Below are positions 2,157 to 33,702 of a stretch of DNA of 36,887 bases, piece after piece. The notes under the pieces were generated by a model, which did no database searches, was not told the DNA's origin, and saw nothing but the letters and a program-made list of their open reading frames with translations. The position numbers and the translations under genes are program-made. The DNA is from Bacteroidaceae bacterium (GTDB taxonomy: Bacteria; Bacteroidota; Bacteroidia; Bacteroidales; Bacteroidaceae): contig JAFRQD010000022.1 of assembly GCA_017428785.1 (NCBI GenBank), positions 1 through 36,887 on the forward strand. Reading direction: 5' to 3'. Within the stretch, counting starts at the first letter, position 1. Each line of letters opens with the position of its first letter.

Positions 2157-2244
2157 CGTGTTTAGTTTGCCTGCATACCACGTTTTGTTTGCCTGCATGC
2201 CGTGTTTAGTTTGCATGCATGCCGTGTTTAGTCTGCCAACCAGG
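2157..2244. repeat. 22-bp tandem array, skeleton CGTG-N4-GTT, at the lptD 3' end
   Basis: Four units start at 2157, 2179, 2201 and 2223: CGTG-TTTA-GTT-TGC, CACG-TTTT-GTT-TGC, CGTG-TTTA-GTT-TGC and CGTG-TTTA-GTC-TGC, each followed by a similar 8-base tail. The period is exactly 22. A further CACG at 2245 keeps the phase and runs into the lptD stop codon at 2256. The skeleton CGTG-N4-GTT is shared with arrays at 7297, 19616 and 33621, although the variable bases differ. Confidence 0.85.
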
Positions 2245-2255
2245 CACGCTCTTCA

Positions 2256-5063
2256 TCAATACCACTCTACGTTGCTGCTGTAGGAGCTTTGCTTCTTCCA
2301 TCGGAGGGCATCGGCAAGGGTGCCGGCTTTGCAGGCGAAGAGGAAGTTGAAGCTGGTGTAGGGCGAGATGACCATGCTGAGCGACATGGAGAAGCAGTGC
2401 AGGTCGCGGGCCAAAGACATCGTGGTCATGCTCATCTTCTTGTAGTTGAAGTCGTAGCCCGACGAGAAGTTGATGTTCCAGCCTTCTGCGATGCGGACGT
2501 TGCCTGAGAAGTTGAGCGTCTGCGTGAACCGATAGGGATAACGCATCCTCTTGGGGTTTATCGCCGCACTGGTGTTCTCGCGCATTGAGACGCCGTAGCT
2601 GACGCTGAGGCTCCAGGGCATCTGGAACTTGAGGTAGCCGTCCTCGTCCAGTTCGCTCGAGATGTTATCCTTGGCTCCTGTCATGCCTTTCTTGCGCTCC
2701 GGGTCAAGGTTCTGCATGGTGGGGTCTGTCTCTTCCTCGTCTTCATCCTCTTCATCCTCGTCGTCGCTTCGGCTGCTGAACGTCTTGGACAACTTGTTTC
2801 GCATGCCGAACAGCTTCTTGAGCTTCTCGTTGTTGAGGGTATAGGAGATGTTGTGGCTCATGCCCTGGAAGCGTCCGAAGCGGCCTTTGCCCCACTCCGT
2901 GTGGTCGCCCACATAGACATTGCCGTTTTGGTCGAACTCGTAGGCATAGGTGGCAAAGACGGCGTTCATGGAGAAGGTGTAGCTCTTGGTGAGCTTGAGG
3001 CGGAGGCGCATGCTGAGGTCGCTCCAGGGCTTTTTCTTCGCCGCCATGTTGTAGCTCATGGACAAGCCCAGCTCGTCGATGAGGCTGATTCTCTTCTCGC
3101 CTGTCGAGTCACGGCTGGAGCGCATTTTCATCTCCACATTGTTGGAGACGTCGAACGAGACGCTTCCTGTCATGCCGCTTGGAGCGGTGCCGTATGTGCT
3201 ACCGCTGAAGGGGGAATAGGATACTGTGGAGACATTGCCTTTGGCGTCTGTGCGGACGTATGTGTCATAGAAGCCCCACATCGGTTTGCTGAAGTCGGGC
3301 GCATAGCTGAAGGAGATGCCGGGCGTCATCATGTGTCGGATGGCCTTTATCTTCTTTCCCCCGAACCACGGCATGGGCGTGTAGAAGCCATAGAGCTTGG
3401 TGTTGGCGCTGACGCCCAAGCTGAAGTTATAGACATTGTAGAAGCCATAGACCGTGTCGCGCTGGACGGTGCGCTTCTCATCGTCCCACGACTGCATGAC
3501 TTTCTTCGAGTACATGCGGTCGGTAAAGGTAAAGTTGGGCGTAATGTTTATGTACTTGAGCACAGAGAAGCTGGCATTGATGGGTATCTGGTGGCGCATG
3601 CCGTTGCGCCAGTCCTTCACCAGGCTGCTCTTGAAGAGAAGGTTCTCCTTGGTGTTGATGCTGTTGGTAAGAGAACCGGAGTAGCCCATGCTGATCTTCT
3701 CGTACCACCGCTCCTTGCCTGCCATCTTCTTGCGCTTGAAAGGATAGAAGCGGTTGAGCTGAATGGTGAGGTTGGGCAAGGTGACGGCTATGCTGCTGTC
3801 GCGCACGCTCTGGGCGAGGTTGAAGGTGCCGCCCAGCGTCAGGCCAATGCTGGGGAACGACTTGCTGTAGGAGATACTGCTGGTTCGGGTGCTCTGGGTA
3901 TAGCTCTCGGGATTATACATGCTCACGAGGTTATTGCGCTCGTAGCTGCTCGTGGCGAAATTGACGCTGGCCGAGAAGCTTTGTGTGGGATTGGCCTTCG
4001 CGTCTTGCCGGTGCGTCCAAGCCACCTTGAAGCTCTTGTTGACAGAGAAGTCGGGCATGTTCTTCTCGCCCGTCTGCGTATGCTGGTAGCTGATGAACAG
4101 GTTGCCGGAGAATTTGTAGCGCTTCTTGTAGTTGGATTGCGCCGAAAGCGCCCATGAGCCCTTCGTGTAGATGTCGCCCAGGACCTTGGCATCGACAAAG
4201 TCGCTGAAGGCGAAGTAATAACCGCCCTCACGCAGATAGAAGCCTCGCGACGTCTCATCGCCATAGCTCGGCATGATGAAGCCGCTGCTGTACTTGCTCT
4301 TGAAGGGGAAGAAGCCATAGGGAATGGCCAAAGGCAGCGGCACATCGCAGACAACGAGATAGGTGGGGCCAAAGACTACATCCTTGCCCGGCCGCATCTT
4401 GGCTCGCGTCATGTTCAGGTAGAAGTGTGGGTGCTCGGCATCGCAGGTCGAATAGAAAGCCTTCCTCACATACATCGTTCCCAAGCTGTCACGCTTGCCG
4501 TCCAGACTCTTCATGAAGCCCTCGCCCTGCTGGGTGTAGACATTGGAGATGAAGGCTTTGCGCGTCCGGAAGTTATAGCTGATGCTGTCGGGCTCATACT
4601 CGTCCGAACCCTGCTTGAAGAGGGGCTTGCCGATGACGTTGCCCAAGGAGTCTGTTCTGCTCGTGGCATGAACAAGGCTGCTGTCGATGGAGATGTTGAT
4701 GATTTCGGCTTCGAGCTCCAGGTTCTGATACTGCACCTTGCCCTCTCCATAAAGGTGGGCTCGGGAATTGATATAGTCGAAGGTAATGGAGTCCTTGGCA
4801 GAATAGTTGACGGGCAGGTCGAGGGCATTCTTGCTCCTGGGTGTGGTATCGACAGGAACCGTGTCGGGCGGCACAGAGTCCGGCAGGATGGTATAGGCTT
4901 GCAAGGGCGGTCTCTGTGGCTGCACCTTAGCAGAATCGGGCAAACTGTCCGTGCGAAGAGAGTCAGCGGCATTCCCCGGAAAGACTGCTCTTCCTGCAGG
5001 ACGCGCTGCCAATGATGCCAGAACATAGCATGCCGTCAGTATGGATAATAACCTTGCCTTCAA
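2256..5063 (-). CDS. lptD: LptD/OstA-like LPS-assembly outer-membrane protein
   Basis: The protein has 935 residues. I infer a TTG start at 5063, since there is an in-frame stop two codons upstream and the next residues (KARLLSILTACYVLASLAA) form a signal peptide. Residues about 80-220 resemble the OstA/LptA-like jellyroll (KDSITFDYINSRAHLYGEGK). About 240-270 has the LptD-like stretch PYGFFPFKSKYSSGFIMPSYG, and the rest is a long beta-strand-rich barrel ending in the aromatic NVEWY. In the family, LptD inserts LPS or lipooligosaccharide into the outer leaflet. An acidic run of about 16 Asp/Glu residues lies near 765-780, probably an extracellular or periplasmic loop. Its own -7 element lies at 5088-5095. 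Exact substrate is inferred. Confidence 0.88.
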   Translation of the reverse strand: MKARLLSILTACYVLASLAARPAGRAVFPGNAADSLRTDSLPDSAKVQPQRPPLQAYTILPDSVPPDTVPVDTTPRSKNALDLPVNYSAKDSITFDYINSRAHLYGEGKVQYQNLELEAEIINISIDSSLVHATSRTDSLGNVIGKPLFKQGSDEYEPDSISYNFRTRKAFISNVYTQQGEGFMKSLDGKRDSLGTMYVRKAFYSTCDAEHPHFYLNMTRAKMRPGKDVVFGPTYLVVCDVPLPLAIPYGFFPFKSKYSSGFIMPSYGDETSRGFYLREGGYYFAFSDFVDAKVLGDIYTKGSWALSAQSNYKKRYKFSGNLFISYQHTQTGEKNMPDFSVNKSFKVAWTHRQDAKANPTQSFSASVNFATSSYERNNLVSMYNPESYTQSTRTSSISYSKSFPSIGLTLGGTFNLAQSVRDSSIAVTLPNLTIQLNRFYPFKRKKMAGKERWYEKISMGYSGSLTNSINTKENLLFKSSLVKDWRNGMRHQIPINASFSVLKYINITPNFTFTDRMYSKKVMQSWDDEKRTVQRDTVYGFYNVYNFSLGVSANTKLYGFYTPMPWFGGKKIKAIRHMMTPGISFSYAPDFSKPMWGFYDTYVRTDAKGNVSTVSYSPFSGSTYGTAPSGMTGSVSFDVSNNVEMKMRSSRDSTGEKRISLIDELGLSMSYNMAAKKKPWSDLSMRLRLKLTKSYTFSMNAVFATYAYEFDQNGNVYVGDHTEWGKGRFGRFQGMSHNISYTLNNEKLKKLFGMRNKLSKTFSSRSDDEDEEDEDEEETDPTMQNLDPERKKGMTGAKDNISSELDEDGYLKFQMPWSLSVSYGVSMRENTSAAINPKRMRYPYRFTQTLNFSGNVRIAEGWNINFSSGYDFNYKKMSMTTMSLARDLHCFSMSLSMVISPYTSFNFLFACKAGTLADALRWKKQSSYSSNVEWY

Positions 5064-5087
5064 TTGCTATACAATTATTCCAATTTG

Positions 5088-5095
5088 CAAAGGTA
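5088..5095 (-). promoter_or_regulatory. -7 promoter element of lptD (TACCTTTG)
   Basis: Read on the minus strand the bases are TACCTTTG, matching TAnnTTTG, 25 bases before the TTG start of lptD. No -33 TTTG is seen at the usual 19-21 base spacing. The element suggests lptD can be transcribed separately from the HD-domain gene upstream. Confidence 0.55.
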
Positions 5096-5145
5096 AGATT
5101 ATTTTCCGAGACTTTATGCCTTTTCCTTCTATTATTATGATTTTT

Positions 5146-5679
5146 TCACTCAAAGCGAGCTATCCACGCCTTGAAGACGTCCAATCCTTCACTTCCGAAC
5201 TTCTCCAGACTGCGCAAGGCCTGTTCGGGCGTCTTCTCCCTTTCGGGGTGCGACTTGGAGTAGAACTTGTCGGCATAGCATACGATTTGTTCCTCGATGG
5301 TCTCGGGCCTGAAGTCCTGGCGAGGCAGGGGCAGGTTCTGATGCTCTATCTCGCTTGCAGTAAGGCCAGTGCCTGTGTGCCGCTCCGCCACGCGGGCATG
5401 ACGGGGGAGGCCTTCGCTGCGCAGTATCTCTGCTCCCAGGATGCCGTGACGGATATAGGGCTCTGTGCCGAAGCAATGAATGGAAGGCGCATTGGTGCGA
5501 ACCGAGCCGATGTCGTGTAGCATTGCGGCTTCCCAAAGGAACTGCTCGTCGGCTTCCAGTTCGGGATGTCTCTTTGCTATCTGCAGCGCCCGTCGGGCCA
5601 CATCACCGCTGTGCCGGATGAGCAACGCCTCGAGCGCCTCATTGTCTCCGCAATACTTATGAATCAATTCATTTACCAT
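5146..5679 (-). CDS. HD domain-containing hydrolase
   Basis: This 177-residue protein belongs to the HD phosphohydrolase superfamily, metal-dependent enzymes of the cytoplasm. The HD signature is AAMLHDIGSV (H55-D56). Other candidate metal ligands are H22 in IRHSGDV, the H in RHGILGAEIL and the H in AERHTGTG. Length and pattern fit the small stand-alone HD family annotated as TIGR00295-like. The substrate cannot be read from the sequence. Its ATG at 5679 has a -7 element 10 bases upstream. It sits 82 bases upstream of lptD on the same strand with a separate promoter between, so cotranscription is optional. Confidence 0.85.
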   Translation of the reverse strand: MVNELIHKYCGDNEALEALLIRHSGDVARRALQIAKRHPELEADEQFLWEAAMLHDIGSVRTNAPSIHCFGTEPYIRHGILGAEILRSEGLPRHARVAERHTGTGLTASEIEHQNLPLPRQDFRPETIEEQIVCYADKFYSKSHPEREKTPEQALRSLEKFGSEGLDVFKAWIARFE

Positions 5680-5689
5680 AATTCTTGCA

Positions 5690-5697
5690 CAAAGTTA
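5690..5697 (-). promoter_or_regulatory. -7 promoter element of the HD gene (TAACTTTG)
   Basis: TAACTTTG on the minus strand fits TAnnTTTG and lies just upstream of the ATG at 5679, implying a leader of only a few bases. No convincing -33 TTTG is seen. It stands almost back to back with the plus-strand promoter at 5742. Confidence 0.5.
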
Positions 5698-5709
5698 CAA
5701 AGAAAATAG

Positions 5710-5737: not shown

Positions 5738-5741
5738 TTCG

Positions 5742-5749: not shown

Positions 5750-5773
5750 CAGATAATTTGAGTTGCCAAGAGC

Positions 5774-5808: not shown

Positions 5809-5817
5809 TTTGAGGTT

Positions 5818-7281: not shown

Positions 7282-7296
7282 GCCTTACAAACGCCG

Positions 7297-7406
7297 CGTG
7301 CGGCGATTGCAATCCCCGGCTGCGGCGATGACCATTTCCGCGTGCGGCGTTGGCAATCCCCGCGTGCGGCGTTTTTCAGCGCCCCACAGGGGGATTTCGA
7401 TGATGA
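7297..7406. repeat. 22-bp tandem array with palindromic GC core, downstream of the DUF1846 gene
   Basis: Units begin at 7297, 7319, 7341 and 7363: CGTG-CGGC-GAT-TGC, GCTG-CGGC-GAT-GAC, CGTG-CGGC-GTT-GGC, CGTG-CGGC-GTT-TTT. A decayed fifth is at 7385 (CACA-GGGG-GAT). The period is exactly 22. The first unit is preceded by ACGCCG, giving the near-palindrome CGCCGC-GT-GCGGCG. The array is almost the same sequence as the one at 19616. It starts 16 bases after the DUF1846 stop codon. Confidence 0.88.
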
Positions 7407-9649: not shown

Positions 9650-9759
9650 CGGGCATCGTTGCACAACGTCGCACGCGATGTTCGTTGATTTATCATGATG
9701 CAGCAATTGAATCATCATGATGCAGCAATTGATTTATCATGATGCAGCAACGAACCAAG
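9650..9759. repeat. 22-bp tandem array between the helicase stop and the lipoprotein promoter
   Basis: Units start at 9650, 9672, 9694, 9716 and 9738, exactly 22 apart: CGGG-CATC-GTT, CACG-CGAT-GTT, then three near-identical units CATG-ATGC-AGC-AA followed by TTGAATCAT or TTGATTTAT. The first two match the CGTG-N4-GTT skeleton of the other arrays; the last three keep only the period and the CATG. The rest of the 304-base gap (9539-9842) holds a promoter, a small GGGCA/TGCCC dyad near 9771-9787 and no gene. Confidence 0.75.
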
Positions 9760-9842
9760 CTGGCGAAGTTGGGCAACTCTCCTGCCCGGGACGCCTCACA
9801 AGGGCTGAAAGAAGGGCAGTCCTGGGGAGGAGGGCAGAAGTC

Positions 9843-13412: not shown

Positions 13413-16400
13413 TTATCTTTGATTGGCCGCAAGGAGCGAGAAGATGATTCTGTATCCTTGCTCTGTGTTCTCTGCTTCAAGGCGAAGTCCCGGATGTCCG
13501 CAGGCAGTATCGTGTTCGCGAACGATCTGACGCATCACCAGATACTCCAGCCGCTCTGTTTGAGGCGAGAAGAGTTCGGAAAGCTGCTGAGCAGAGAGCG
13601 GCTGTCCCTCTACATTATATATTATATAATACATGCTGCCGCGATGCTCGATGCTGAGTGTGGCGTTGGCCGATGCTACGGCAAACATCTGATCAAGCAA
13701 CAGCAAGAGCAGCGTCTCGTCGCCTTTGACCCAAGCGTCTGTGGGCTGACTCGCCACTCCATGCGACTGGGCATAGGCAAAGAGGTTGCCGACTGCAACG
13801 GCCTGCATCCGCAAAGGAGCTTGGTCTGTTTGCCCTTTTGCCTGTTCATAGAGCAGCATATAGATGTGGCGATAATAGTTAACGAGGTCGAGCAGATTGT
13901 GGCTCGTCTCTGCATCGAAGCCATTTTCCTTCATTTCATCGGTCATTTGCTTGATGCGAGAAGGGAAATACATCGTTTCATGCTTGATGGTGCTCAGCGA
14001 ATTGTCGAGTATCTGATTCATGACATACAGGCGGTCGTGCTCGAAACTCCAGCGCTTTTCTTTCTCCTGAGCGTCTTGAATGGCGACCTCTGTCTCTTGC
14101 AAATGAGACAATCTCGAGGAGAACTGTTGCCGCAACTGCTGCACAGATTCTCGCAACTGCGGTTGCTGAAGACTACGGGCTACGCTTCTCAACTCACTAT
14201 CCATCATCGCAGCATTCTTAGGAAACGAACGGAGAACCGACGAAAGGCGCTGATAAAGGTCGTCGAGCGAAGCACGATGGCGCAGGCGATGGCGCAGCAC
14301 AACCCTATAGAACAAAGTCAGAGAAGCGATGAGAAGTAAGAAAATCAGGACATAAAGCACTCGCGAGTCCTCCGTCATCTTCTCCAGTTTCTTGCAATCG
14401 GAAGCAAGCGTTCCGTCGGTGCTATAAAGGCGATGCAGACGCACACACTCTGCATTGCTCAGCCGATACGAGTCCCAATCTCCGAGAGCCTGTGCGGCAA
14501 TGGCTTGTTCATTATACAATGAGACCAGCAAAGGCGTATCGACCGGCGCTTCAGTCAAGGAGATTGCACTGTCGGAGAAAAGACAAGCGTCGGCATATCT
14601 GCCATCGAGATTGGCTTTGTAGGTAGAGTCATACAGCTCATAGCATCGCTGCGGCATTGACTGGACACAGAGATTAAATAACAAGAAGAACAACAAAGGC
14701 AGCACTCTCGGCAAGCGGAACCAGAAGCGGCTCCCTTTTCCTTGCTCACTTTCAACGCCGAAGTCACAGACATTGAAAAGCGAAGAGAGCTTCTTGTAGC
14801 TGTTGATGATGCCTTTGCAGTTCATGATGCCGAAGCCAAAGCCCTTTTCTTCGCCCGCAACTCCTATATGACTCGGGTCGTAAACCTTGCTGTCGTTAAG
14901 GGTTTTGACATCTTCCGGAGTGAGGCCAATGCCAGTATCGCAGACGCTCACCTCTACATAATCATCGGTGGAATCGAGCAAAATGGAGACCTTGCCTCCT
15001 TCTAGCGTGAACTTGCGGGCATTATCGACAAGCGTGTTCACCATAAACAGCGTCAAAGGCTTATCGGCTTTAACCTGAAGATTTGTCTCAGGAACCTGTA
15101 GCGTAAGCTGCTTTTGGGTGAATGCATACTGCTGCATAGAGATAACATTCAATACATCGCTAAGGGGGAAACGAGAGACTTGCAGGTTGAGGCGCCCTTG
15201 TTGCATCTGTATCCAGTTCGTCAGTCGGTCGTTGATGCCCATCATGCCAGAGCACAATTCCTGGATATACGAGAGGCGTGCAGGAGCATTTTCGCCCATT
15301 TCATCGAGCTTTTTAACCTCAGCAATGACGCGGTCGAGGTAGGGAATGATGGCATAGACAACAGACAATTTAGTGCTTCCGAAGATGTGCCGCTGCTGCT
15401 GTTGGAGGATGCGTTGCTCCATAACCTGGCACTCTTCCCTGCTTTCCTCCAGTTGCTCCTCGCTTTGTTGCAAAAGCATTTGCAGTTTCTGCTCAGCCTC
15501 TTGACAAACTTCGCTGGAGCTAATCTCGCGAACCTTTTGCTCGAAAGAACGAGAGCGATGCCCTAACTGACGGTAATAGATGGCAGAAAGGACACCTACC
15601 ACCACAGCAAGCAACAGCAGCAAAAGGAACTGCATCTGTTCGCTATGAGCCTCCTGGTCAAGCAAAGCTTTGCGGCTATCGAGTTCTCTGTTCTGGCGCG
15701 ACTGGTCGAGAAGGTCAAGATAAGTATTACGGTGGCTATCTGCATTTGTTTTATCACCAAGCGCACTATAAGTAAGGCTGAGGTTCTCGTGTATGCCAGC
15801 CAGCCAAGGGATTACCTGATAAGGTGAACGCTTGCGGTCAGAAGCGAGATGCAAAGCAGAAAGGAAGCTTTTGAGAGCCTCGTCATAGTGTCCGGCTGAG
15901 AAATAAACCTCGCCCAAGGTTCGCTTAGCACAAGCCGTTTGGAAGAGGTCGCGGTACTCCTGGAATAGGGCAACAGCGTGATGGGACAAGGCTGCGGCAA
16001 ACTGATGTCGCAAAGAAAGCGTGCTGTCTGACTGCCACTGAAGGTGCTCGCCATATAGGTAACTGTATGCATCAATACGTTGTTGCTTAATCCAATTAGC
16101 ACGAAGCGAGTCGGCAACCATGGCAGAAAGCGACTGAAGGGCGTTTGCTTCGAAGTAAGTGAAGTGATTGGCCTTTGCCAGAGTATAGACGCGGAAGAGA
16201 TGATTGAACTCCGTGACGGCCACTTCCTCCGGTGTCCCTGTCACAAGCCCGCCGCTTCCTATCATATAATTATAGTAGAGCCATTGCGTCGTATCCGTAT
16301 CAAGATTGACATATTGGGCGGCTTCCTGAATCTCGCTACAAGCCGCGCTGTCCTGTCCGAGATAATAATAATAGGTAGAGGCCACGATATGGAGCTCAGT

Positions 16401-16859: not shown

Positions 16860-16865
16860 CGGAAT

Positions 16866-16900
16866 ATTTACATTTTAACCATATACCATTTACTATTTGA
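16866..16900. repeat. heptamer array in the kinase leader
   Basis: Five 7-mers: ATTTACA, TTTTAAC, CATATAC, CATTTAC, TATTTGA. The array ends 7 bases from the kinase start codon (16859) and fills about half of the batE-kinase gap. The ATTTAC word is shared with the array before batB. Confidence 0.55.
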
Positions 16901-16934
16901 CTTGCTCCGGAAGGGAGTTGGTAGTGGTATAGCC

Positions 16935-19569: not shown

Positions 19570-19615
19570 CTTATGGTGTTTCTTTCATTCCCGAATGAGG
19601 GGGTTAAAAACGCCG

Positions 19616-19725
19616 CGTGCGGCGTTGCCCAATTCCGCGTGCGGCGATGGCAATCCCCGCGTGCGGCGTTTGGCATTTCCGCAGGCGGCGTTTTGCAACA
19701 TCTCTGGGGGCGTTTTGAATCGTCA
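19616..19725. repeat. 22-bp tandem array with palindromic GC core, inside the bat operon
   Basis: Units begin at 19616, 19638, 19660, 19682 and 19704: CGTG-CGGC-GTT-GCC, CGTG-CGGC-GAT-GGC, CGTG-CGGC-GTT-TGG, CAGG-CGGC-GTT-TTG, CTGG-GGGC-GTT-TTG. The period is exactly 22. The left edge forms the near-perfect palindrome AACGCCGC-GT-GCGGCGTT. The array fills most of the gap between the batB fusion stop (19729) and the batD start, and is a second copy of the array at 7297. Confidence 0.9.
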
Positions 19726-19728
19726 CTT

Positions 19729-22511: not shown

Positions 22512-22620
22512 ATTGAAGATTGAAGATTGAGAATTGAAAGGTCTTTCTTCCTTATTTCAATCTTCAACAATCAATGTTCAATGTTCTTTATATTTCAATA
22601 TTCAATATTCAATTCTCAAT
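22512..22620. repeat. long heptamer arrays upstream of batA
   Basis: First block 22512-22539: ATTGAAG twice, ATTGAGA, ATTGAAA. Second block 22555-22620: TTTCAAT, CTTCAAC, AATCAAT, GTTCAAT, GTTCTTT, three bases, then TTTCAAT, ATTCAAT, ATTCAAT, TCTCAAT. The two blocks are reverse complements in wording (ATTGAA/TTCAAT), so they could form a hairpin. They fill almost the entire 123-base gap. Confidence 0.75.
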
Positions 22621-22624
22621 AAAA

Positions 22625-26433: not shown

Positions 26434-26895
26434 TTACTCGAGACCCTGAATCGTATCGGTGTTCTTGATGACCTCGATGGCGTCGGCTGCGAGCTTGCGA
26501 CTGGGTACAAGCTGGAAAGTGGCCTCCCGACGGAGGTTCTTGAAGCTGTCGCTGGGCGTCCAACGGATGTTGACGTTCTTGATGTTGGTAGAAGAGAAGT
26601 CCTCCGTGGTGACTGCGCCTTCGGTGTCAAGTTCTACGTGAAAATCTCCCAGGTCGCCGAGCTTCACCTTGTTGCCGGCAAGCATCTGCTCACGGAGGCA
26701 GGAAACGGCATCGCAGAGAACACCCTTGATGGTTCCCTTGGAGAAGGGCGAATGGTGGTCGGCAATATGCTTGCAGAAAGCGTCGAGGTCGAGGATTTCA
26801 TCCACCTGTGCTGAGCCGTAAGCCTTGGTGTGATTGATGTTTTCCTTCTTGGTGCCGGGCTTGGCACTCATGATAGAGATACTGTACTTAATCAT
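26434..26895 (-). CDS. HU-like DNA-binding protein of the Bacteroidetes type (HU-HIG)
   Basis: The protein has 153 residues. The N-terminus (MIKYSISIMSAKPGTKKE) lacks the usual HU start. It is followed by a helical HU-like region (VDEILDLDAFCKHIADHHSPFSKGTIKGVLCDAVSCLREQMLAGNKVKLGDLGDFHVEL) that fits the HU-like domain common in Bacteroidales (annotated HU-HIG), then a C-terminal segment with FSSTNIKNVNIRWTPSDSFKN. Such proteins are thought to bind DNA, but their roles are mostly unstudied. It stands alone, divergent from the restriction-modification genes, with a terminator and octamer structure downstream. No consensus promoter is obvious upstream. Confidence 0.85.
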   Translation of the reverse strand: MIKYSISIMSAKPGTKKENINHTKAYGSAQVDEILDLDAFCKHIADHHSPFSKGTIKGVLCDAVSCLREQMLAGNKVKLGDLGDFHVELDTEGAVTTEDFSSTNIKNVNIRWTPSDSFKNLRREATFQLVPSRKLAADAIEVIKNTDTIQGLE

Positions 26896-26986
26896 AAATA
26901 ATAAAGTTTAAAGGATTAATAATTAAAATAATAAATGTTTCGCGCGAGGGCAGCGAAGACGTCTCACAGGTAGTCGACAAACCATG

Positions 26987-27014
26987 CACGTGAAGTTGGC
27001 CAAGCTGGCACGTG
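26987..27014. repeat. paired CACGTG sites around TTGGCCAA
   Basis: CACGTG occurs at 26987-26992 and again at 27009-27014, 22 bases apart, flanking the palindrome TTGGCCAA. The spacing equals that of the 22-bp arrays (CGTG to CGTG), so this may be a decayed member or a dyad operator for the HU-like gene. The remainder of 26896-27140 is AT-rich with no gene. Confidence 0.35.
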
Positions 27015-27140
27015 TCAATGACCGTCTTTTGCAGAACCCTCACGCTATTATATACTCGACACCCCCCATTTTGTTAACCCCTAAAGCAAAAAATTTTATA
27101 TAAAAGTTTGTTTTTGTCATCTACTATGCCTTTTTTTTCG

Positions 27141-27148
27141 TATCTTTG
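27141..27148 (+). promoter_or_regulatory. -7 promoter element upstream of the methyltransferase leader
   Basis: TATCTTTG matches TAnnTTTG. A TTTG lies upstream at 27113-27116, with a spacer of 24, longer than the usual 19-21. Transcription would begin near 27153 and give a leader of about 325 bases before the methyltransferase ATG. Confidence 0.55.
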
Positions 27149-27154
27149 CAGTCG

Positions 27155-27190
27155 AAAGGGCATGATATCACCTCAGCGGAGGTGCCCTTT
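27155..27190 (+). promoter_or_regulatory. first leader hairpin
   Basis: AAAGGG (27155-27160) pairs with CCCTTT (27185-27190), and CACCTC (27169-27174) pairs with GAGGTG (27179-27184) around an AGCG loop. An 8-base bulge lies on the left side. It sits at the predicted transcript 5' end. There is no T-run directly after it, so a terminator role is uncertain. Confidence 0.55.
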
Positions 27191-27224
27191 GAATCTTATT
27201 AAAAACAGCATTCGCTATTATTTC

Positions 27225-27405
27225 GCGTTCAGCCAAAAGCGTAGGAAACTTATTGGGAATAAACGCAACGAGATAATACGTAACAAGGTGACCGTAAAGG
27301 GACATCTTACGCAGTCTTATTAATGGGAATGCATTCACATAGGTGTGATGCATACTTTGTAAGACTGCGGAGGTTCCCTTCCTACGCTACCTCTAAGCTG
27401 AACGC
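27225..27405 (+). ncRNA. candidate structured RNA: nested inverted repeats upstream of the methyltransferase
   Basis: Five nested pairings are exact. GCGTTCAGC 27225-27233 pairs with 27397-27405, GCGTAGGAA 27239-27247 with 27379-27387, GGGAA 27255-27259 with 27374-27378, and CGCAGTCTTA 27310-27319 with 27360-27369. ATGCAT-T-CACA 27329-27339 pairs with TGTGATGCAT 27344-27353 around a TAGG loop. Together they give one long rod with a side region of about 50 bases (27260-27309). It could be a cis-regulatory leader, an independent small RNA such as a 6S-like rod, or a MITE-like DNA element. I found no match to tmRNA, RNase P or SRP RNA signatures. Confidence 0.5.
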
Positions 27406-27415
27406 AACAAGGTGC

Positions 27416-27476
27416 ATCACGCCTTTTTGCGTTATGGCGTGATTGATAGTTGGATGCGCTTAACAATTATCAATCA
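27416..27476 (+). promoter_or_regulatory. mutually exclusive hairpins before the methyltransferase start
   Basis: Hairpin F pairs ATCACGCC (27416-27423) with GGCGTGAT (27436-27443). Hairpin G pairs TGATTGATA (27440-27448) with TATCAATCA (27468-27476). They share bases 27440-27443, so only one can form. Hairpin G ends 3 bases before the ATG at 27480 and would hinder ribosome loading. Confidence 0.5.
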
Positions 27477-27479
27477 CTT

Positions 27480-28481
27480 ATGTCCGGAAAAAAAGAGAAA
27501 GCAGGCAGAAACAGGACCTTATCTGTTACTCCAAATGAGAAAACATTTCTTGAACCTTTAATTCATTCACTTGACAAACTGAAGAATGGTTTTGAAAGAG
27601 ATGTAGTTGTAAATGCGGATTTATTGGATTGTTTGGATTATATTCCCAACAATTCATTCGATTTGATCATTATTGATCCCCCTTATAATTTAGATAAAAA
27701 TTTTCATGGGAAAAAGTTCTCTTCCATGAGCAATGTAGATTATGAGGACTACCTGCGTAGTTGGTTCACATCCGTATGCGACAAGTTGAAAAATAATGGT
27801 TCTCTTTATATGTGTGGTGACTGGAAATGTTCTTCAGCAATGCAAAGAGTAATTGAAGAAAAACTAACTATCATCAATAGGATAACATGGCAAAGAGAGA
27901 AAGGTCGTGGAGCATTGAAAAACTGGAAAAACGGGATGGAGGATATTTGGTTTGCCGTAAAAAACCCCAAAGATTACTACTTTGACATTTCGTCAGTAAT
28001 GATGAAGCGAAAAGTTATAGCGCCATATAAAGTCGATGGGAAACCAAAAGACTGGGAAGAAAGTGAAAAAGGCAATTTCAGAATGACATACCCTTCTAAT
28101 TTCTGGGACGATATAAGCATTCCTTTTTGGTCTATGCCCGAAAACACAGATCATCCGACTCAAAAACCCGAAAAGCTATATGCAAAAATTATATTAGCTT
28201 CTTCTAAATCTGGAGATTTTATTTTTGACCCTTTCTTGGGTAGTGGTACTGCAGCAGTTGTTGCACACAAACTTGGCCGAAAGTATTTTGGAGTTGAAAT
28301 TAACCACGAATACTGTTGCTGGGCCATCAAGAGATTAATGAACTCCGATACAGACCCTTCTATTCAAGGATATTTTGATGGTGTATTTTGGGAACGTAAT
28401 ACACTTAACGACCAAAAGAAATCTGTAAAAAAGAGAAACAAGAAAGATGTGCAATTACTTAATTTCGAAGAACTGATATGA
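27480..28481 (+). CDS. beta-class DNA methyltransferase (N6-adenine or N4-cytosine) of a type II system
   Basis: The protein has 333 residues from the ATG at 27480; the open frame extends 10 codons up to a TTG but that stretch is leader hairpin. Motif IV is IIIDPPYNL (DPPYNL at 66-71). After the target-recognition part come motif X (ENTDHPTQKPEKLYAK) and motif I DPFLGSGT (250-257), followed by GRKYFGVEI. This order (IV, recognition region, X, I) marks the beta class, and DPPY favours N6-adenine. The middle (WQREKGRGALKNWKNGMEDIWFAVK) is strongly patterned. The recognition sequence cannot be read. The gene is AT-rich and overlaps the next gene by 4 bases. Confidence 0.92.
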   Translation: MSGKKEKAGRNRTLSVTPNEKTFLEPLIHSLDKLKNGFERDVVVNADLLDCLDYIPNNSFDLIIIDPPYNLDKNFHGKKFSSMSNVDYEDYLRSWFTSVCDKLKNNGSLYMCGDWKCSSAMQRVIEEKLTIINRITWQREKGRGALKNWKNGMEDIWFAVKNPKDYYFDISSVMMKRKVIAPYKVDGKPKDWEESEKGNFRMTYPSNFWDDISIPFWSMPENTDHPTQKPEKLYAKIILASSKSGDFIFDPFLGSGTAAVVAHKLGRKYFGVEINHEYCCWAIKRLMNSDTDPSIQGYFDGVFWERNTLNDQKKSVKKRNKKDVQLLNFEELI

Positions 28482-29647
28482 ATGCAACTTGCAAGGATTT
28501 TGTCCACTTCATTATACAAGAGGCTCCCAAACACAATAAAACGCGTGTAGAAGATGCCGTTTCGTACAAATACAATCTTATAAAAGACAGAAAGGTATAT
28601 CACAATCAATATTTTGCCGTAAGATTCAGCTATTCTAAATCTTCATCCGATTCTTTTTCTAATACAGTTTTATCACTATCTGCTTTGGAGAAATATGACA
28701 AAATTCCATTCTTTGTAGTATTAGTACGTCAATCTGCCGATAATCTTATCATGTTGGCTAACACAACTTTCCTTAAGAAAATAAGTCATAGTTCTCAGGA
28801 GTTAAGTATGACCAACATCAAGGGGAGTTTTAACGGTTCAGATATTATGAGAGACTATGACGGGAGAAGTAATACTGCAAGCAACTTTGATTATCTGTTT
28901 GCTATTCATCAAGGACTTGAGTGGGAAGATAATTTAATGCGCCTTGTTGATGCAACATCAAACATCACACCAACAAGCCAAAAGTTCGTTCCTTCACAAC
29001 TTGAAAAAAATAATATCTTTGAATCAGTTGAGAGAGCCGAAAATTTCATACAATCCGAATACTATCATGTATTGAACGATGATTTAAACGAAAGATGTAA
29101 CAAATGTCGAAACGAGATACTTATTGCGTCCCATATTGAAAACACGAACATACGTGGAAGACTTATTGAAAGTTTGATAACGTCTGACGATAAAGAAAGG
29201 GAAATGATAATAAAGAATCTACAGAATATGGAAAGTGCCCTACCATCATATGACACAAAAAATGGCTTGGGAGATTATCATGTTGAGTATGAAAATGCAG
29301 ATACATACACTGATATTAAGACAAAAGTTATCTATCTAAATTCTAATCCAAAAGCATACAATGTTGATAAATTCTTAAAACAAATGGCTGACTCAAGAAG
29401 CGTTTTCATGTTTTTCTTTATTGGCGTTGATACAAATGATATATTCAGTACACTATTGTGTTCTGTTTACCATGATAAACTTATTAGTAACACAATTCTT
29501 CAGTTTCATTGGGCAGGACGTTCTTCTCGTGGTGTCGCTCAATTCAATGGTTCTGCAATTGATGAAATGTTGAAAAAAGAACACTTTCATAATAATATCA
29601 TCAACACACAAGCAATTAAGTTCTTAGAAAATTTATTAAATCGCTAA
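28478..29647 (+). CDS. probable type II restriction endonuclease
   Basis: The protein has 389 residues and starts with ATG overlapping the methyltransferase stop by 4 bases (ATGA). No family name is certain, but position, codon style and a PD-(D/E)xK-like motif support a restriction enzyme: GDYHVEYENADTYTDIKTK, with D266 and D279-x-K281 as candidate catalytic residues, followed by strand VIYLNSN. There is no signal peptide or membrane helix. Like the methyltransferase, it is much richer in A and T than the flanking genes, which suggests acquisition as a unit. It is followed by a bidirectional terminator. Confidence 0.75.
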   Translation: MNATCKDFVHFIIQEAPKHNKTRVEDAVSYKYNLIKDRKVYHNQYFAVRFSYSKSSSDSFSNTVLSLSALEKYDKIPFFVVLVRQSADNLIMLANTTFLKKISHSSQELSMTNIKGSFNGSDIMRDYDGRSNTASNFDYLFAIHQGLEWEDNLMRLVDATSNITPTSQKFVPSQLEKNNIFESVERAENFIQSEYYHVLNDDLNERCNKCRNEILIASHIENTNIRGRLIESLITSDDKEREMIIKNLQNMESALPSYDTKNGLGDYHVEYENADTYTDIKTKVIYLNSNPKAYNVDKFLKQMADSRSVFMFFFIGVDTNDIFSTLLCSVYHDKLISNTILQFHWAGRSSRGVAQFNGSAIDEMLKKEHFHNNIINTQAIKFLENLLNR

Positions 29648-29720: not shown

Positions 29721-29727
29721 GTTATCT

Positions 29728-30825
29728 TTACTCAATCTTCTCGAGCTCGGGCAGTTTGATTTCCATATCGACGGGGACGTTGTCGGGGTCGGGGAAAGCG
29801 TTGTGCACGATGATGTACGGAGCGAAGTCCTTGTTGCCGTACTCCTCGATGGCGATGCGGGTGATGAACTCGCCGGGCTTCATGATGTGCGTCTTGCGAG
29901 TGCCCACTATCCTGTACTCGCCGCCAGGAACCTGAGCGTACTCAACCTTGGGTGCGGGAGCTTCGACGGGTTTCTTCACTTGAGGCTCAGCAGCAGCTGG
30001 CTCCACGTTTGCTGACTTCTGCGTCAAGGAGCGAGTCGCAAAGAACACTATCACGCAAAGCAGCAAGAGACCCAATGCCCAAGCCCATAAGCGATGGCCC
30101 TTACCATCTCCTGATGGAGAGGAACCTGTAGGCTCTTCCTTTGCGGAAGGTTCAGGAGCAGGTGCTGGTTCAACTTCAGGCTTCGGCTCTTCCTTTACCT
30201 CGGGCTTAACTAGAGGCTCGGGATTAACTGCAGGCTCGGGGATTGGTTCTTTCTTTACCTCGGGCTTAACCTCGGGTTCGGGAACTACTTCCTCCTCTTT
30301 CTGTTCTTCTTTGACCTCTGGCTCTGGTGTTTCAGGCTCAGGTGTTGTCTCAGGCTCAGGCTCGGAAACAGGAGTGAATGCTTGAACAGGCTGTACTGCA
30401 ACTTCAGGCTCTTTATCATCTGCTTCAGATTCTTTCTCTAGAGAGGGTTGGGAAGTCTGAGTCGCTTCTTGAGGCACCCATTCCATCTCCTCGATGCTCG
30501 TCCCTTCGTTGATGACAGTAGTTTGGAAGTCTGCGAAAGGCTTGTTGATGAGGTCCTTGAGGGCAGTCTCGGGAATGAAGGAGAGTTTCGAATGTCCGGG
30601 TATCACGATGCGTTCGCCTGTATTGACATTGACGCTCTCTCGGTCGAGCACCTCAATCAGCTTGAACGTGCCCAAGCCCTTTATCTTGACAAGCTTGTCG
30701 ATGGTGACGTTTTGAACGATGGAATCGAAGAATTCTTTCAGGAAAGCCTCGGCATCCTTCTGCGAAATGGCATGTTTCTGAGCCAGCGTTTTGGCAAGCT
30801 GGGGAAGGGTTATCTTGTTAGCCAT
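29728..30825 (-). CDS. membrane-anchored HU-domain protein with C-terminal LysM-like domain
   Basis: The protein has 365 residues. Residues 1-95 are an HU/IHF-type DNA-binding domain (TLPQLAKTLAQKHAISQKDAEAFLKEFF, VKIKGLGTFKLIEV, the beta-arm NVNTGERIVIPGHSKLSF). Residues about 130-240 are a Pro/Glu/Lys-rich linker. One membrane helix follows (RLWAWALGLLLLCVIVFFATR, 245-265), then a basic/Pro/Ala linker and a C-terminal domain at about 300-360 with LysM-like pattern (YRIVGTRKTHIMKPGEFITRIAIEEYGNKDFAPYIIVHNAF, NVPVDMEIKLP). The layout implies DNA binding in the cytoplasm and peptidoglycan binding in the periplasm; that link is inference. It follows a second HU gene by 7 bases. Confidence 0.85.
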   Translation of the reverse strand: MANKITLPQLAKTLAQKHAISQKDAEAFLKEFFDSIVQNVTIDKLVKIKGLGTFKLIEVLDRESVNVNTGERIVIPGHSKLSFIPETALKDLINKPFADFQTTVINEGTSIEEMEWVPQEATQTSQPSLEKESEADDKEPEVAVQPVQAFTPVSEPEPETTPEPETPEPEVKEEQKEEEVVPEPEVKPEVKKEPIPEPAVNPEPLVKPEVKEEPKPEVEPAPAPEPSAKEEPTGSSPSGDGKGHRLWAWALGLLLLCVIVFFATRSLTQKSANVEPAAAEPQVKKPVEAPAPKVEYAQVPGGEYRIVGTRKTHIMKPGEFITRIAIEEYGNKDFAPYIIVHNAFPDPDNVPVDMEIKLPELEKIE

Positions 30826-30832
30826 AATACTC

Positions 30833-31108
30833 TTATTTCTTAACTCTTAATTTCAAGGATGTGTTGGGTTTGAAGTTCACCGTCATCTTTGGCGGCACAA
30901 GCATTTTCTGCTTGGTTGTTGGATTGACGAGGACACGCTCCAGCTTCTTCTTCACCTCAAAAGTGCCGAAGCCAGGAACGAAGATGGAGTTCTCTTCCAG
31001 CAGCTCGCCTATGATGGCAGAGACAGTAGCACTTGCCAACGAAGCGGCTTCCTTACTGCTCAACTTGGTTCGGCTGGCCAAGTCGGTTATAAATTCTTTG
31101 TTGTTCAT
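30833..31108 (-). CDS. HU family DNA-binding protein
   Basis: The protein has 91 residues, the normal size for HU/IHF. It has the dimerisation helices (MNNKEFITDLASRTKLSSKEAASLASATVSAIIGELLEENS), the turn FVPGFGTFEVKKK and the beta-arm RVLVNPTTKQKMLVPPKMTVNFKPN. It bends or wraps DNA as a dimer. The C-terminal codons (LRVKK) and the stop lie in a TTAAGAGTTAAG-type word repeat that continues into the next gene's leader. Start ATG at 31108, 18 bases after the rimO stop, preceded by an octamer array. Confidence 0.93.
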   Translation of the reverse strand: MNNKEFITDLASRTKLSSKEAASLASATVSAIIGELLEENSIFVPGFGTFEVKKKLERVLVNPTTKQKMLVPPKMTVNFKPNTSLKLRVKK

Positions 31109-31109
31109 A

Positions 31110-31138
31110 TTTAGTCGTTTAGTTGTTTAGTCGTTTAG
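31110..31138. repeat. octamer array at the rimO-HU junction
   Basis: TTTAGTCG, TTTAGTTG, TTTAGTCG, TTTAG on the plus strand. It covers the last codons and stop of rimO (stop at 31127-31129) and reaches to 2 bases from the HU start codon. The period is 8 rather than 7. Confidence 0.75.
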
Positions 31139-32476
31139 GATTGCAAAAAGGTCGAATTCATCGGCACTTTCTATCTTCGCTTGCACGAACATTCCCGGCT
31201 TGAGGTTGGGCGATTCGACTTTCTTGATGAGCACCTCAGGGTCAACTTCCGGGGAATCGAACTCCGTTCTGCCAATGAGATAGCCACCTTCCTCGCGGTC
31301 GATGATGACTTTCATCGTTTGCCCTACCTTGTGGGCTTGAACCTCTTCACTTATCTGTTGCTGGACGCGCATCAACTTGCTGAGACGCACCTGCTTCACT
31401 TCTTCCGGGACATCGTCCTTGTAATGCTCTGCGGCATAAGTTCCCTCTTCTTCACTATAGGCAAAGGCACCCATTCGCTCGAACTTCGCCCACTTCACGA
31501 AGTCGATGAGTTCCTGAAAGTCCTCATCTGTCTCGCCGGGGAAGCCCACCATGAGTGTCGTGCGAAGATGAATGCCGGGCACTTCCCTGCGGATTTTCTC
31601 GATGAAATCGTAGGTTTCTTGCTTCGTGATGTGTCGACGCATAGCCGAAAGCTGACTGTCGGAGATGTGTTGAAGAGCAATATCAAGGTACCTGCAGACG
31701 TTCTTGTGACGCTTCATCACCTCCAAGAGTTCCCAAGGGAAATGGGCAGGATAACCGTAGTGAAGCCTTATCCACTCCACACCAGGCACCTCAGCAATGC
31801 GGTCGATGAGTTCTGCTATCATCTGCTTGCCGTAGATGTCTGTCCCGTAGCCCGTCAACTCCTGCGCGATGACCTGAAACTCCTTGACTCCCTTTGCCAC
31901 CAAACCTTCCACTTCAGCCACGATTTCTTCGATGGAATGGGACTTTTGTTTGCCTGTGATGATAGGAATGGCACAATAAGCACAATGCCGATTGCAGCCC
32001 TCACTTATCTTTAGGTAGGCATAGTGCGAGGGCGTTGTGAGGTGCCTTTCATTGGAGGCGTCCTTGTGATAAGTGCCATTCAGGTCGGTGATGATTTGCT
32101 CCCAATCGAACTTGCCGTAGAACTTATCTACTTCGGGCAGTTCCTGCTGAAGTTCCTCGAAGTAACGCTGCGAGAGGCAGCCCATCACGATGAGTTGCTT
32201 GATCTTGCCTTGTTCCTTGCGCTGCGCAAGTTCGAGTATCATGTTGATGCTTTCCTCCTTCGCATCGCCGATGAAACCGCAGGTGTTGACGATAGCAATC
32301 TCCCCCTCGGGTTCCTCTGCATCGTGCGTCACCTTGAAGCCGTTCAGTTCCAACTGACGGATGAGCTTCTCGCTGTCAACAAGGTTCTTGCTGCAACCGA
32401 GGGTGATAATATCAACAGAGGTCCCCTCTAACTCCCCCTTTATGGGGAGAACCTTTGGCGGAAGCAGATTCTTCAT
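31127..32476 (-). CDS. rimO: ribosomal protein S12 methylthiotransferase RimO
   Basis: The protein has 449 residues. RimO is a radical-SAM enzyme that methylthiolates the conserved aspartate of ribosomal protein S12. The N-terminal MTTase domain has the three cluster cysteines C28 (TLGCSKNLVDSE), C66 (VNTCGFI) and C100 (VMGC). The radical-SAM motif CNRHCAYC is at 161-168, and a TRAM domain ends the protein. The first about 19 residues (MKNLLPPKVLPIKGELEGT) are an extra piece encoded by a heptamer array plus a GC-rich repeat. The conserved protein starts at VDIITLGC, and no alternative start lies between. It follows ftsY by 16 bases. Confidence 0.95.
   Translation of the reverse strand: MKNLLPPKVLPIKGELEGTSVDIITLGCSKNLVDSEKLIRQLELNGFKVTHDAEEPEGEIAIVNTCGFIGDAKEESINMILELAQRKEQGKIKQLIVMGCLSQRYFEELQQELPEVDKFYGKFDWEQIITDLNGTYHKDASNERHLTTPSHYAYLKISEGCNRHCAYCAIPIITGKQKSHSIEEIVAEVEGLVAKGVKEFQVIAQELTGYGTDIYGKQMIAELIDRIAEVPGVEWIRLHYGYPAHFPWELLEVMKRHKNVCRYLDIALQHISDSQLSAMRRHITKQETYDFIEKIRREVPGIHLRTTLMVGFPGETDEDFQELIDFVKWAKFERMGAFAYSEEEGTYAAEHYKDDVPEEVKQVRLSKLMRVQQQISEEVQAHKVGQTMKVIIDREEGGYLIGRTEFDSPEVDPEVLIKKVESPNLKPGMFVQAKIESADEFDLFAILND
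32419..32455. repeat. GC-rich palindromic element, copy f (translated in rimO)
   Basis: On the minus strand: GGTTCTCCCCATAAAGGGGG then AGTTAGAGGGGACC. It nearly equals copy a at 12103-12135. It lies in frame near the 5' end of rimO and encodes residues about 9-19 (VLPIKGELEGT). Confidence 0.75.
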
Positions 32477-32502
32477 TCTTCACTCTTCATTCTTAATTCT
32501 TG
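32468..32502. repeat. heptamer array at the ftsY-rimO junction
   Basis: Five 7-mers: ATTCTTC, ATTCTTC, ACTCTTC, ATTCTTA, ATTCTTG. The array covers the ftsY stop codon (32493) and the rimO start codon (32474-32476). Confidence 0.75.
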
Positions 32503-33446
32503 AATAAGGAGTCAACAAACTCTCTACGATTGAATGGCTGCAAGTCTTCTGCCCGCTCGCCTAAACCGATGTAGCGGACAGGTATCTTGAACTGGTCGCT
32601 GATGCCGATGACTACACCGCCCTTGGCACTTCCGTCAAGCTTCGTGATGGCCATACTTGTGACCTCCGTCGCAGAAGTGAATTGCTTGGCTTGCTCGAAG
32701 GCATTCTGGCCGGTACTGCCATCGAGGACGAGCATCACATCGTGCGGCGCATCGGGCATGAGCTTCTGCATCACGCGCTTTATCTTCGAAAGCTCGTCCA
32801 TGAGGCCTTTCTTGTTGTGCAGACGACCCGCAGTATCGATGAGGACGACATCTGCGTTGTTGGCTATTGCGCTGTTCAACGTATCGAAAGCCACGCTGGC
32901 TGGGTCGCTGCCCATCTTCTGCTTCACGACAGGCACCCCTACCCTTTCAGCCCAGATACATATCTGCTCGACAGCAGCGGCGCGGAACGTATCAGCAGCA
33001 CCAAGCACGACCTTCAAGCCAGCCTCCTTGAACTGATAGGCGAGCTTGCCGATAGTTGTGGTCTTGCCAACGCCGTTCACGCCCACAACAAGGATGACAT
33101 ACGGACGCTTGTCGGCAGGAATCTGGAAGCCTTCGGTATCGTCTGTGTTGTTTTCCGTGAGCAATTGTGCGATTTCATCGCGAAGAATGTTGTTCAGCTC
33201 GCCGGTGGTGACGTACTTGTCTCGAGCCACTCGTTCCTCGATTCGCTTGATGATGTTGAGGGTCGTCTCAACCCCCACATCGCTTGTCACGAGGACTTCC
33301 TCGAGGTTGTCGAGCACCTCGTCATCAACCTTCGACTTGCCTGCAACGGCACGCGTCAGTTTGCCGAAGAAACTTTCCTTCGTCTTCTCAAGCCCCTGGT
33401 CGAGCGTTTCCTTCTTCTCTTTGCTAAAGAAATTAAAGAATCCCAT
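32493..33446 (-). CDS. ftsY: signal recognition particle receptor FtsY
   Basis: This 317-residue protein has the N and G domains of FtsY without a long acidic A domain, as usual in Bacteroidetes. N domain about 20-95 (TRAVAGKSKVDDEVLDNLEEVLVTSDVG). The GTPase part has G1 GVNGVGKTTT (122-131), the DTFRAAAVEQ insertion-box region, G3 DTAGRLHNKKGLM, G4 TKLDGSAKGG and the closing GLGERAEDLQPF. It receives the SRP-ribosome complex at the inner membrane. Own promoter at 33475-33507; probable first gene of ftsY-rimO-HU-HU/LysM. Confidence 0.97.
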   Translation of the reverse strand: MGFFNFFSKEKKETLDQGLEKTKESFFGKLTRAVAGKSKVDDEVLDNLEEVLVTSDVGVETTLNIIKRIEERVARDKYVTTGELNNILRDEIAQLLTENNTDDTEGFQIPADKRPYVILVVGVNGVGKTTTIGKLAYQFKEAGLKVVLGAADTFRAAAVEQICIWAERVGVPVVKQKMGSDPASVAFDTLNSAIANNADVVLIDTAGRLHNKKGLMDELSKIKRVMQKLMPDAPHDVMLVLDGSTGQNAFEQAKQFTSATEVTSMAITKLDGSAKGGVVIGISDQFKIPVRYIGLGERAEDLQPFNRREFVDSLFKN

Positions 33447-33474
33447 ATCTTCCTTTGCTTAGTTATTTCGCGTG

Positions 33475-33507
33475 CAAATTTAGCAAAAAAAGGCCAATCC
33501 ATCGCAA
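33475..33507 (-). promoter_or_regulatory. promoter of the ftsY operon
   Basis: On the minus strand TTTG (33504-33507), a 21-base spacer, then TAAATTTG (33475-33482). This fits the Bacteroidetes consensus. The -7 element is 28 bases before the ftsY ATG. Confidence 0.75.
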
Positions 33508-33552
33508 ATAATACCGAAATTTTAGTATTTATTAAGTAATGTAAGGCAACAG

Positions 33553-33584
33553 AAAAAGCTCCTCCGCCTCGCGACGAAGGAGCT
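33553..33584 (-). terminator. intrinsic terminator after the M56 peptidase gene
   Basis: AGCTCCT (33557-33563) pairs with AGGAGCT (33578-33584). On the minus strand the stem is followed by TTTTC. The terminator lies about 120 bases past the M56 stop codon, so the 22-bp array between them belongs to the 3' untranslated region. Confidence 0.75.
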
Positions 33585-33620
33585 ATCTGAAAACATCACG
33601 TGGGATAATCGCAAACTTAA

Positions 33621-33702
33621 CGTGTCATGTTGTCAAAAATAACGTGTGATGTTGTCAAAAATAACGTGTGATGTTGTCATACTTAACGTGTCGTGTTGGG
33701 AA
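33621..33702. repeat. 22-bp tandem array in the 3' region of the M56 peptidase gene
   Basis: Units start at 33621, 33643, 33665 and 33687: CGTG-TCAT-GTT-GTC, CGTG-TGAT-GTT-GTC, CGTG-TGAT-GTT-GTC, CGTG-TCGT-GTT-GGG, with an AT-rich tail (AAAAATAA) in between. The period is exactly 22. The last unit ends one base from the M56 stop codon. Confidence 0.9.

Follow-up and report, generated by a model that had tools for sequence, protein, structure and literature searches.

Arrays of the window and their relatives

The window analysed here (the whole stretch of 36,887 nucleotides, taken from contig JAFRQD010000022.1 of a Bacteroidaceae bacterium) contains five arrays of tandem 22-bp units, set in the gaps between its genes. 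They represent one kind of intergenic DNA element, whose units are mostly quasi-palindromes in a clade of seven genomes (G000, which is the genome of the window, G005, G008, G012, G013, G020 and G024), and whose wording is replaced between loci and between species while the period is kept. The arrays are listed below with the p value of a dyad test, in which the pairing of each array about its best axis was compared with that of the same array after permutation of its 22 columns; 'word' denotes the wording of a unit, and the lettered types are given with the unit anatomy.

2144..2252, no strand: array 1, about 4-5 units, word CGTGTTTAGTTTGCCTGCATAC (dyad alone, p 0.53)
7284..7386, no strand: array 2, A-type word, CGTGCGGCGTTGGCAATCCCCG (p 0.04)
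9650..9765, no strand: array 3, mixed (p 0.22)
19602..19728, no strand: array 4, A-type (p 0.01)
33588..33709, no strand: array 5, word CGTGTGATGTTGTCAAAAATAA (p 0.10)

Array 1 sits in the convergent gap between the genes for a YsxC/EngB GTPase and LptD (assigned by family search) and has CACG in place of CGTG in one unit. Array 2 occupies the convergent gap after a DUF1846 gene, array 4 separates a BatB/BatC-like gene from the BatD gene, and array 5 separates a BlaR1/M56-like gene, encoding an M56/BlaR1-like TonB protein, from ftsY. Array 3 lies downstream of a PcrA/UvrD-like helicase gene (best model pcrA, below its cut-off). An earlier note on this DNA had described the five arrays, and Tandem Repeats Finder recovers all of them with period 22 (2160-2237, 7294-7371, 9685-9750, 19613-19692 and 33618-33698) and with printed units that agree with the registers first read. 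It had also remarked that a shared CGTG-N4-GTT skeleton is confined to the first two units of array 3, which is correct: two skeleton units at 9650-9693 are followed by three C-type units (approximately 9685-9750) that carry another word, CATGATGCAGCAATTGATTTAT, and have the edges GTTCGTTG and CAACGAAC. All five arrays lie outside likely genes, overlapping called genes by 0-6%. Their proximity to stop codons is real in the window, where the nearest stop is 12, 16, 84, 4 and 2 bp from the array edge, but is nothing special genome-wide, as 45 of 60 arrays fall within 90 bp of a stop compared with 41.0 ± 2.8 when arrays are placed at random in the same gaps.

The window genome, a draft at 84% completeness, comprises 71 contigs totalling 2.98 Mb and was sampled as the window plus 20 stretches of 20 kb (436,887 bp in total; 13% plus the window), which is not strictly a random sample, the contigs having been drawn from those matched in an earlier search. 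A motif-free scan of periods 10 to 60, calling an array at 31 of 44 matches, returned 42 arrays of period 22 in this sample and 31 at its double, 44 (2 x 22), while the runner-up basic periods, 14 and 21, yielded 8 each. First-order Markov sequence gave no array of period 22, in agreement with a genome-wide family and contrary to the outcome by which the note would have been refuted (a count no higher than in shuffled intergenic sequence), although here the whole sequence was randomised and not intergenic DNA alone. Extrapolation from 43 arrays per 437 kb, obtained with slightly different merging, gives approximately 290 per genome. Densities in these gut bacteria reach about a hundred arrays per Mb. 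The original observation is thus confirmed and is larger than first reported.

Beyond the window genome, all genomes were drafts sampled at 11-437 kb each, and genes were called with our own simple caller based on open reading frames (ORFs) and codon usage. At one threshold, and irrespective of coding status, 82 arrays were counted across 877 kb of the seven clade genomes and 25 across 621 kb of a further 17 members of the genus; 21 other genera of the family gave 4 in 562 kb, and 13 genomes of other families a single array in 281 kb, the true unit of which is 11 bp. At least one array was present in 7 of 7 clade genomes and in 12 of the 17 from elsewhere in the genus, a tally in which part of the arrays were counted irrespective of gene calls. 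In the other genera, multiples of 3 apart, 22 was the sole period between 16 and 30 with matches, although these are the four arrays only. After removal of exact duplicates, 105 arrays spanning 3-9 unit lengths were retained for the dyad analysis, and the seven called coding (some possibly mis-called) were set aside to leave 98 noncoding arrays. Among these, eight come from loci retrieved through sequence similarity (L006-L014), another is the L003 array, and one is the 11-bp-period array of G029; all of them were excluded from the comparison of word likeness below. One relative is a named isolate, 'Bacteroidaceae bacterium isolate RGIG7250' (L001), which came from the cecum of a water buffalo.

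Symmetry and spacing of the units

Aligned units follow the frame AAC-N4-CACG-N4-GTT plus a 4-bp spacer such as TGCC, and form an imperfect palindrome with AAC/GTT at the foot of the stem and, as a rule, CACG/CGTG at its apex. The CGTG-N4-GTT skeleton of the earlier note is the reverse complement of AAC-N4-CACG, that is, one half of this palindrome, and the 'locus-specific words' are its mid-stem. For example, word A reads AACGCCG-CACG-CGGNNAT, word B AAATCCA-CACG-TGAACTT and variants, and word E AACTTAA-CACG-TTAAGTT, with further words such as AAGATGG-CACG-CCATCTT, while words C and D form a second group with the apex CATG and the junction CAATTG. The skeleton characterises the clade, where most arrays carry it, but is not universal: at least two CACG at a spacing of 22 occur in 60 of the 98 noncoding arrays, and in more distant species it is replaced by other words while the period of 22 remains. 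In L003 (uncultured Bacteroidaceae bacterium from red deer; more distant), a 22-bp array at 14967-15096 with the word GGACTCATGAGCCC-ATGTGCGT shows strong dyad symmetry (0.81 paired, p 0.01). Two non-clade arrays of period 22, L148:4077-4178 in G017 (GTGCCA-TNNG-TGGCAC) and L180:7455-7562 in G050 (GGTGG-AGTG-CCACC), have stems of 5-6 bp around other tetranucleotides.

Across the noncoding arrays, dyad pairing averaged 0.646 versus 0.495 after column permutation and was significant (p<0.05) in 58 of 98. Within the window, two of the five arrays (those at 7284 and 19602) exceed chance in their palindromic pairing when taken singly, and two of five fold clearly better as single-stranded DNA than their shuffles (z -2.4 and -2.8; the other three -1.0, 0.1 and -0.9). 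The symmetry was also seen when the register was chosen by CACG alone, a choice blind to pairing for which 60 of 98 arrays qualified and which gave 49 distinct arm pairs: the two arms matched at 0.554 compared with 0.413 ± 0.023 for re-dealt arms, the highest of 2000 deals reaching 0.487. The arms covary across loci (0.332 versus 0.165 ± 0.021 shuffled, 0/500, and at most 0.166 when slid by 1-3 columns), and paired cells (63.8% versus 52.4 ± 1.8, 0/500), cells with two-sided changes (59 versus 33.8 ± 4.0, 0/500) and further pair types (23 versus 18.1 ± 1.8, 1/500) all exceeded their shuffled values. Of the interpretation in the earlier note, the common anchors, variable words and two-turn spacing are supported; a modular protein that reads the words singly as modules is not, as arm matching and covariation identify the words in good part as complementary arms of a palindrome.

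The two-turn spacing is exact. In noncoding DNA of the clade, pairs of CACG/CGTG occur 166 times at a distance of 22, 117 times at 44 and 62 times at 66, but only 6 times at 21 and twice at 23. In a separate count of neighbouring units, 165 of 173 pairs lying 21-23 apart fall at exactly 22. The 30 CACG/CGTG pairs each at 20 and 24 probably arise because CACG and CGTG overlap. Coding DNA has no comparable peak (46 at 21, 48 at 22 and 21 at 23), and its somewhat high counts at 22 and 44 perhaps come from arrays mis-called as coding. This regularity is maintained between neighbouring units that differ at 5.80 of 22 positions on average (26%), so that the arrays contain 8 off-phase pairs (21 or 23) against approximately 957 substitutions, about one per 120. 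In the two most closely related species (G012 and G024), intergenic DNA outside the arrays has 199 gap events in 7970 aligned bases at 12.1% divergence (approximately 960 substitutions), or about one gap event per five substitutions, a rough comparison in that units are set against units in one case and species against species in the other. The shortage of off-phase units is the best evidence for a constraint on spacing, although out-of-phase units may simply escape copying.

Turnover of words and arrays

Positions of some arrays are shared between species while their words are not. The gap between the BatB/BatC-like gene and BatD holds an array in six species (159 bp in G000, 116 bp in G005 and 138 bp each in G008, G012, G024 and G020), with common anchors and different words. 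Similarly, arrays with differing words lie downstream of the helicase gene in G000, G008, G020 and G024, with none detected there in G005 and G012, and in G013 an array lies upstream of that gene. Between G012 and G024, five orthologous noncoding arrays matched in unit number, aligned without gaps and diverged by 4.7-7.7%, compared with a median of 13% in other intergenic windows. This comparison leaves out four of nine G012 arrays (two called coding and two without an aligned orthologous gap). One of the six array-bearing gaps in the count of intergenic gap events above is probably coding, so that the figures for arrays are those of the five noncoding arrays. In this small test, the arrays are not hypervariable.

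Within genomes, words recur. The A-type word is present at 18 of 43 listed loci of the window genome and the C-type at 5 of 43, and, with this genome excluded, words share 13.5 of 22 letters within genomes versus 11.6 between them (0/1000 permutations), which agrees with the copying and local homogenisation suggested in the earlier note as an origin of the arrays. The within-genome excess comes mainly from G000 and G008 (17.0 in the latter) and was not found in G005, G020 and G024. Words from outside the clade are no closer to clade words than are shuffled units (10.04 versus 10.15 of 22 letters).

How the arrays may be read

The combination of a fixed two-turn period, covarying arms, replacement of words and the lack of an RNA-strand signature leads us to prefer a reading at the level of DNA, in which two-turn-phased dyad sites are held by their architecture and their words are replaced by copying; we give this a probability of roughly 0.42. 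Recurring every two turns, the dyads would all face one side of the helix, and each would be read, as a symmetric duplex or an extruded hairpin, by a hypothetical chromosomal factor that recognises dyads or structure and that would need phase, symmetry and a few anchors but no fixed sequence. New words would arise by copying of whole units, through conversion within arrays, spread between loci and template switching from arm to arm, and would survive if phase and dyad were kept. A broader version, in which these are genus-wide, architecture-recognised chromosomal sites read by a nucleoid factor that tolerates wholesale replacement of words, is rather unlikely; under it, the clade would keep approximately a hundred such places per Mb, and wording would diverge from lineage to lineage under a conserved period and symmetry, with many positions retained. 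Bacterial repeat families are mostly defined by their sequence. Here, sequence is the variable and period and dyad are the constants, and similarity searches would consequently miss the arrays. If phase is under selection, a chromosome-organising or insulating factor is to be expected in these gut bacteria; if it is not, the arrays are an unusually clean minisatellite with wording that turns over and a length that is frozen.

Several results weigh against dyad sites of this kind. Neither a binding protein nor a phenotype was found, and the factor, like any host function, is hypothetical. No significant dyad was obtained singly for 40 of 98 arrays, including three of the five in the window; outside the clade, p<0.05 was reached in 9 or 10 of 25 arrays of the genus (one is printed as 0.05) and in none of the four arrays from other genera (p 0.06-0.49). 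Pairs in which any two-sided change occurs are no more numerous than in shuffles (6 versus 6.1, 430/500), and when arms are re-dealt among same-species partners pairing is 0.595 against a null of 0.509 ± 0.025 (maximum of 500 deals, 0.585), a smaller signal that suggests part of the covariation reflects the word sets of species. The BatB-BatD gap of G013 (38 bp) is without an array, nor did G005, G008, G012 and G024 show one at the 33.6-kb place, indicating that arrays come and go. The zero-gap result for orthologous arrays is weak, since gaps are likewise absent from 75 of 161 other windows (and from 71 of the 107 that diverge by no more than 0.20). Finally, the spread of near-identical words is equally expected of a selfish repeat.

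This last point belongs to the strongest alternative, a self-copying minisatellite without host function, in which slippage and conversion by whole units would homogenise the arrays, template switching at quasi-palindromes would render the arms complementary, ectopic copying would spread words, and the 22-bp length would simply pass on with each copied unit. It is a serious possibility, almost as likely as the dyad-site reading, and would account for the likeness of units within an array, the recurrence of A- and C-type words across loci, the greater average likeness of words within genomes, the CACG/CGTG apex flips seen inside arrays and the presence of the 33.6-kb array in G000 alone among the five genomes compared. 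It fits less well with the equal unit number in all five orthologous arrays of the closest pair, at a divergence below the median, and with the occupation of the same BatB-BatD gap in six species. Above all, off-phase units are strongly lacking despite 26% divergence between neighbours, which favours dyad sites over a neutral minisatellite.

A role in RNA, with tandem 3' UTR (untranslated region) hairpins that end transcription or stabilise mRNA in either direction, appears improbable. In its favour, RNA folds reached z<-2 in 52 of 86 cases (43 arrays on both strands; one fold has no z-score) compared with 15 of 77 control intergenic stretches, and all five window arrays are near stops. Moreover, although the gap types of 71 clade arrays (46 co-directional, 14 convergent and 11 divergent) are close to those expected from gap number (46.7, 11.8 and 12.5), expectation from gap length is 42.2, 9.6 and 19.2, so divergent gaps are poorer in arrays than their length predicts. 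However, on the mRNA strand of 58 co-directional arrays, stem mismatches were G-T in 104 cells, A-C in 107 and other in 417, beside 1154 paired cells (cells that are not mutually independent), and the apices were CACG in 52 and CGTG in 36. With G-T about as frequent as A-C and both apex orientations in use, the arrays give no sign of selection acting on one transcript, though a preference for G-U would also be masked if hairpins were required on both strands. The window also has no Rfam match at gathering score. A-type arrays open with AAAACGCCGC and close with GCGGCGTTTT, which resembles an opened terminator, but a terminator was rejected given the absence of RNA-strand bias and given that separate U-tract terminators, recognised by eye, adjoin other arrays.

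Equally doubtful is a non-autonomous mobile element, either a miniature inverted-repeat transposable element (MITE) or a REPIN, that a transposase would mobilise through the ends of the array, a mechanism proposed for BrickBuilt of Porphyromonas gingivalis. Copies are many and dispersed, the edges of C-type arrays are discrete and inverted (GTTCGTTG/CAACGAAC), and the two edges of an array pair with each other at 18.34 compared with 14.44 ± 0.49 for edges of other arrays in the same genome. In contrast, the 40-bp flanks outside the arrays are not inverted repeats (12.24 versus 12.40 ± 0.26), and over that distance a long inverted repeat extending past the array was rejected. The Y1 transposase PF01797 was matched in G000 and G013 but not in the array-bearing G005, G008, G012, G020 and G024 (drafts, 62-89% complete), and the BrickBuilt terminal inverted repeat (TIR), GAGACCTTTGCA, is no commoner than chance in the window, with 2 matches at up to 2 mismatches versus 3.99 expected.

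BrickBuilt is nevertheless the closest known system. PMC4596501 describes it as tandem repeats of an imperfect 23-nt unit, found between genes at 19 loci per genome, with predicted stem-loops and variable sites, forming one consensus family with a leader, a tail and IS5-like TIRs; it also discusses long stem-loops from the repeats and dyad symmetry in short elements, and credits Nelson et al. 2003, in their genome paper, with the description of 22-nt tandem repeats of strain W83. The printed consensus, set in tandem, is a quasi-palindrome (0.75 paired versus 0.57 shuffled, p 0.008). Both systems are thus intergenic tandem quasi-palindromes of Bacteroidales with nearly equal unit length, but the arrays described here have 22-bp units, approximately 290 loci by extrapolation and many words in place of 23 nt, 19 loci and one family. 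The consensus has no sequence likeness to the arrays (9.59 versus 9.69 shuffled), which, together with the lack of a TIR excess in the window, makes the arrays like BrickBuilt in kind but not members of it. Among the matches listed in open-licence literature on 22-bp repeats, REPs and other repeats of Bacteroidetes and Bacteroidales, Prevotella and P. gingivalis included, no such arrays were recognised beyond BrickBuilt.

Bacterial interspersed mosaic elements (BIMEs) and REPINs are grouped with the repetitive extragenic palindromes (REPs). According to PMC3733652, REPs are short, intergenic, often clustered palindromes, mostly in unidirectional and convergent gaps, with classes that vary between species and with a GTAG or CGTC tag, the GTAG REPs being linked to RAYT transposases. 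The arrays resemble these in palindromy and location between genes but are head-to-tail with a strict 22-bp period, and the Y1 transposase does not track them; a REP/RAYT origin was rejected on the five array-bearing drafts without PF01797.

DNA uptake motifs often occur as inverted pairs and are also scattered singly, including in genes. Dialects of DNA uptake sequences, species-specific variants of a short genome-wide motif (PMC3630211), resemble the species-specific words, but here the motif is found mainly in arrays: 15 of 18 copies in G008 (1 in other noncoding and 2 in coding DNA; 12.0, 0.13 and 0.022 per kb) and, for the A motif in G000, 47 of 87 (16 and 24; 7.1, 0.32 and 0.063 per kb). 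With density outside arrays at least 20-fold lower, this reading was rejected. A phage or plasmid origin was likewise dismissed, as one A-type array, the single word tried, had no match at E 1e-5 in phage and plasmid collections.

The window also holds features separate from the arrays. Positions 26434-29647 have a low GC content (0.38-0.42) and carry genes for an N6/N4 DNA methyltransferase (27450-28481) and an HU-HIG protein as well as a partner ORF (28478-29647) that has no Pfam match; none of these three proteins has a match in the syntenic stretches of six relatives, and this is probably an inserted restriction-modification island. Tandem repeats of heptamers and 14-bp units (GTTAAGAGTTAAGG and kin), at 35657-35715, 22512-22621, 32468-32501 and in other heptamer rows, are a second repeat class distinct from the 22-bp arrays, in keeping with 14 and 21 as the next commonest periods. 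Finally, the gap between two genes at 16860-16934 is 75 bp in the window and 32 bp in three relatives, but measures 743-990 bp in G005, G013 and G020, where it appears by eye to contain an extra ORF resembling a PAP2-type membrane phosphatase.

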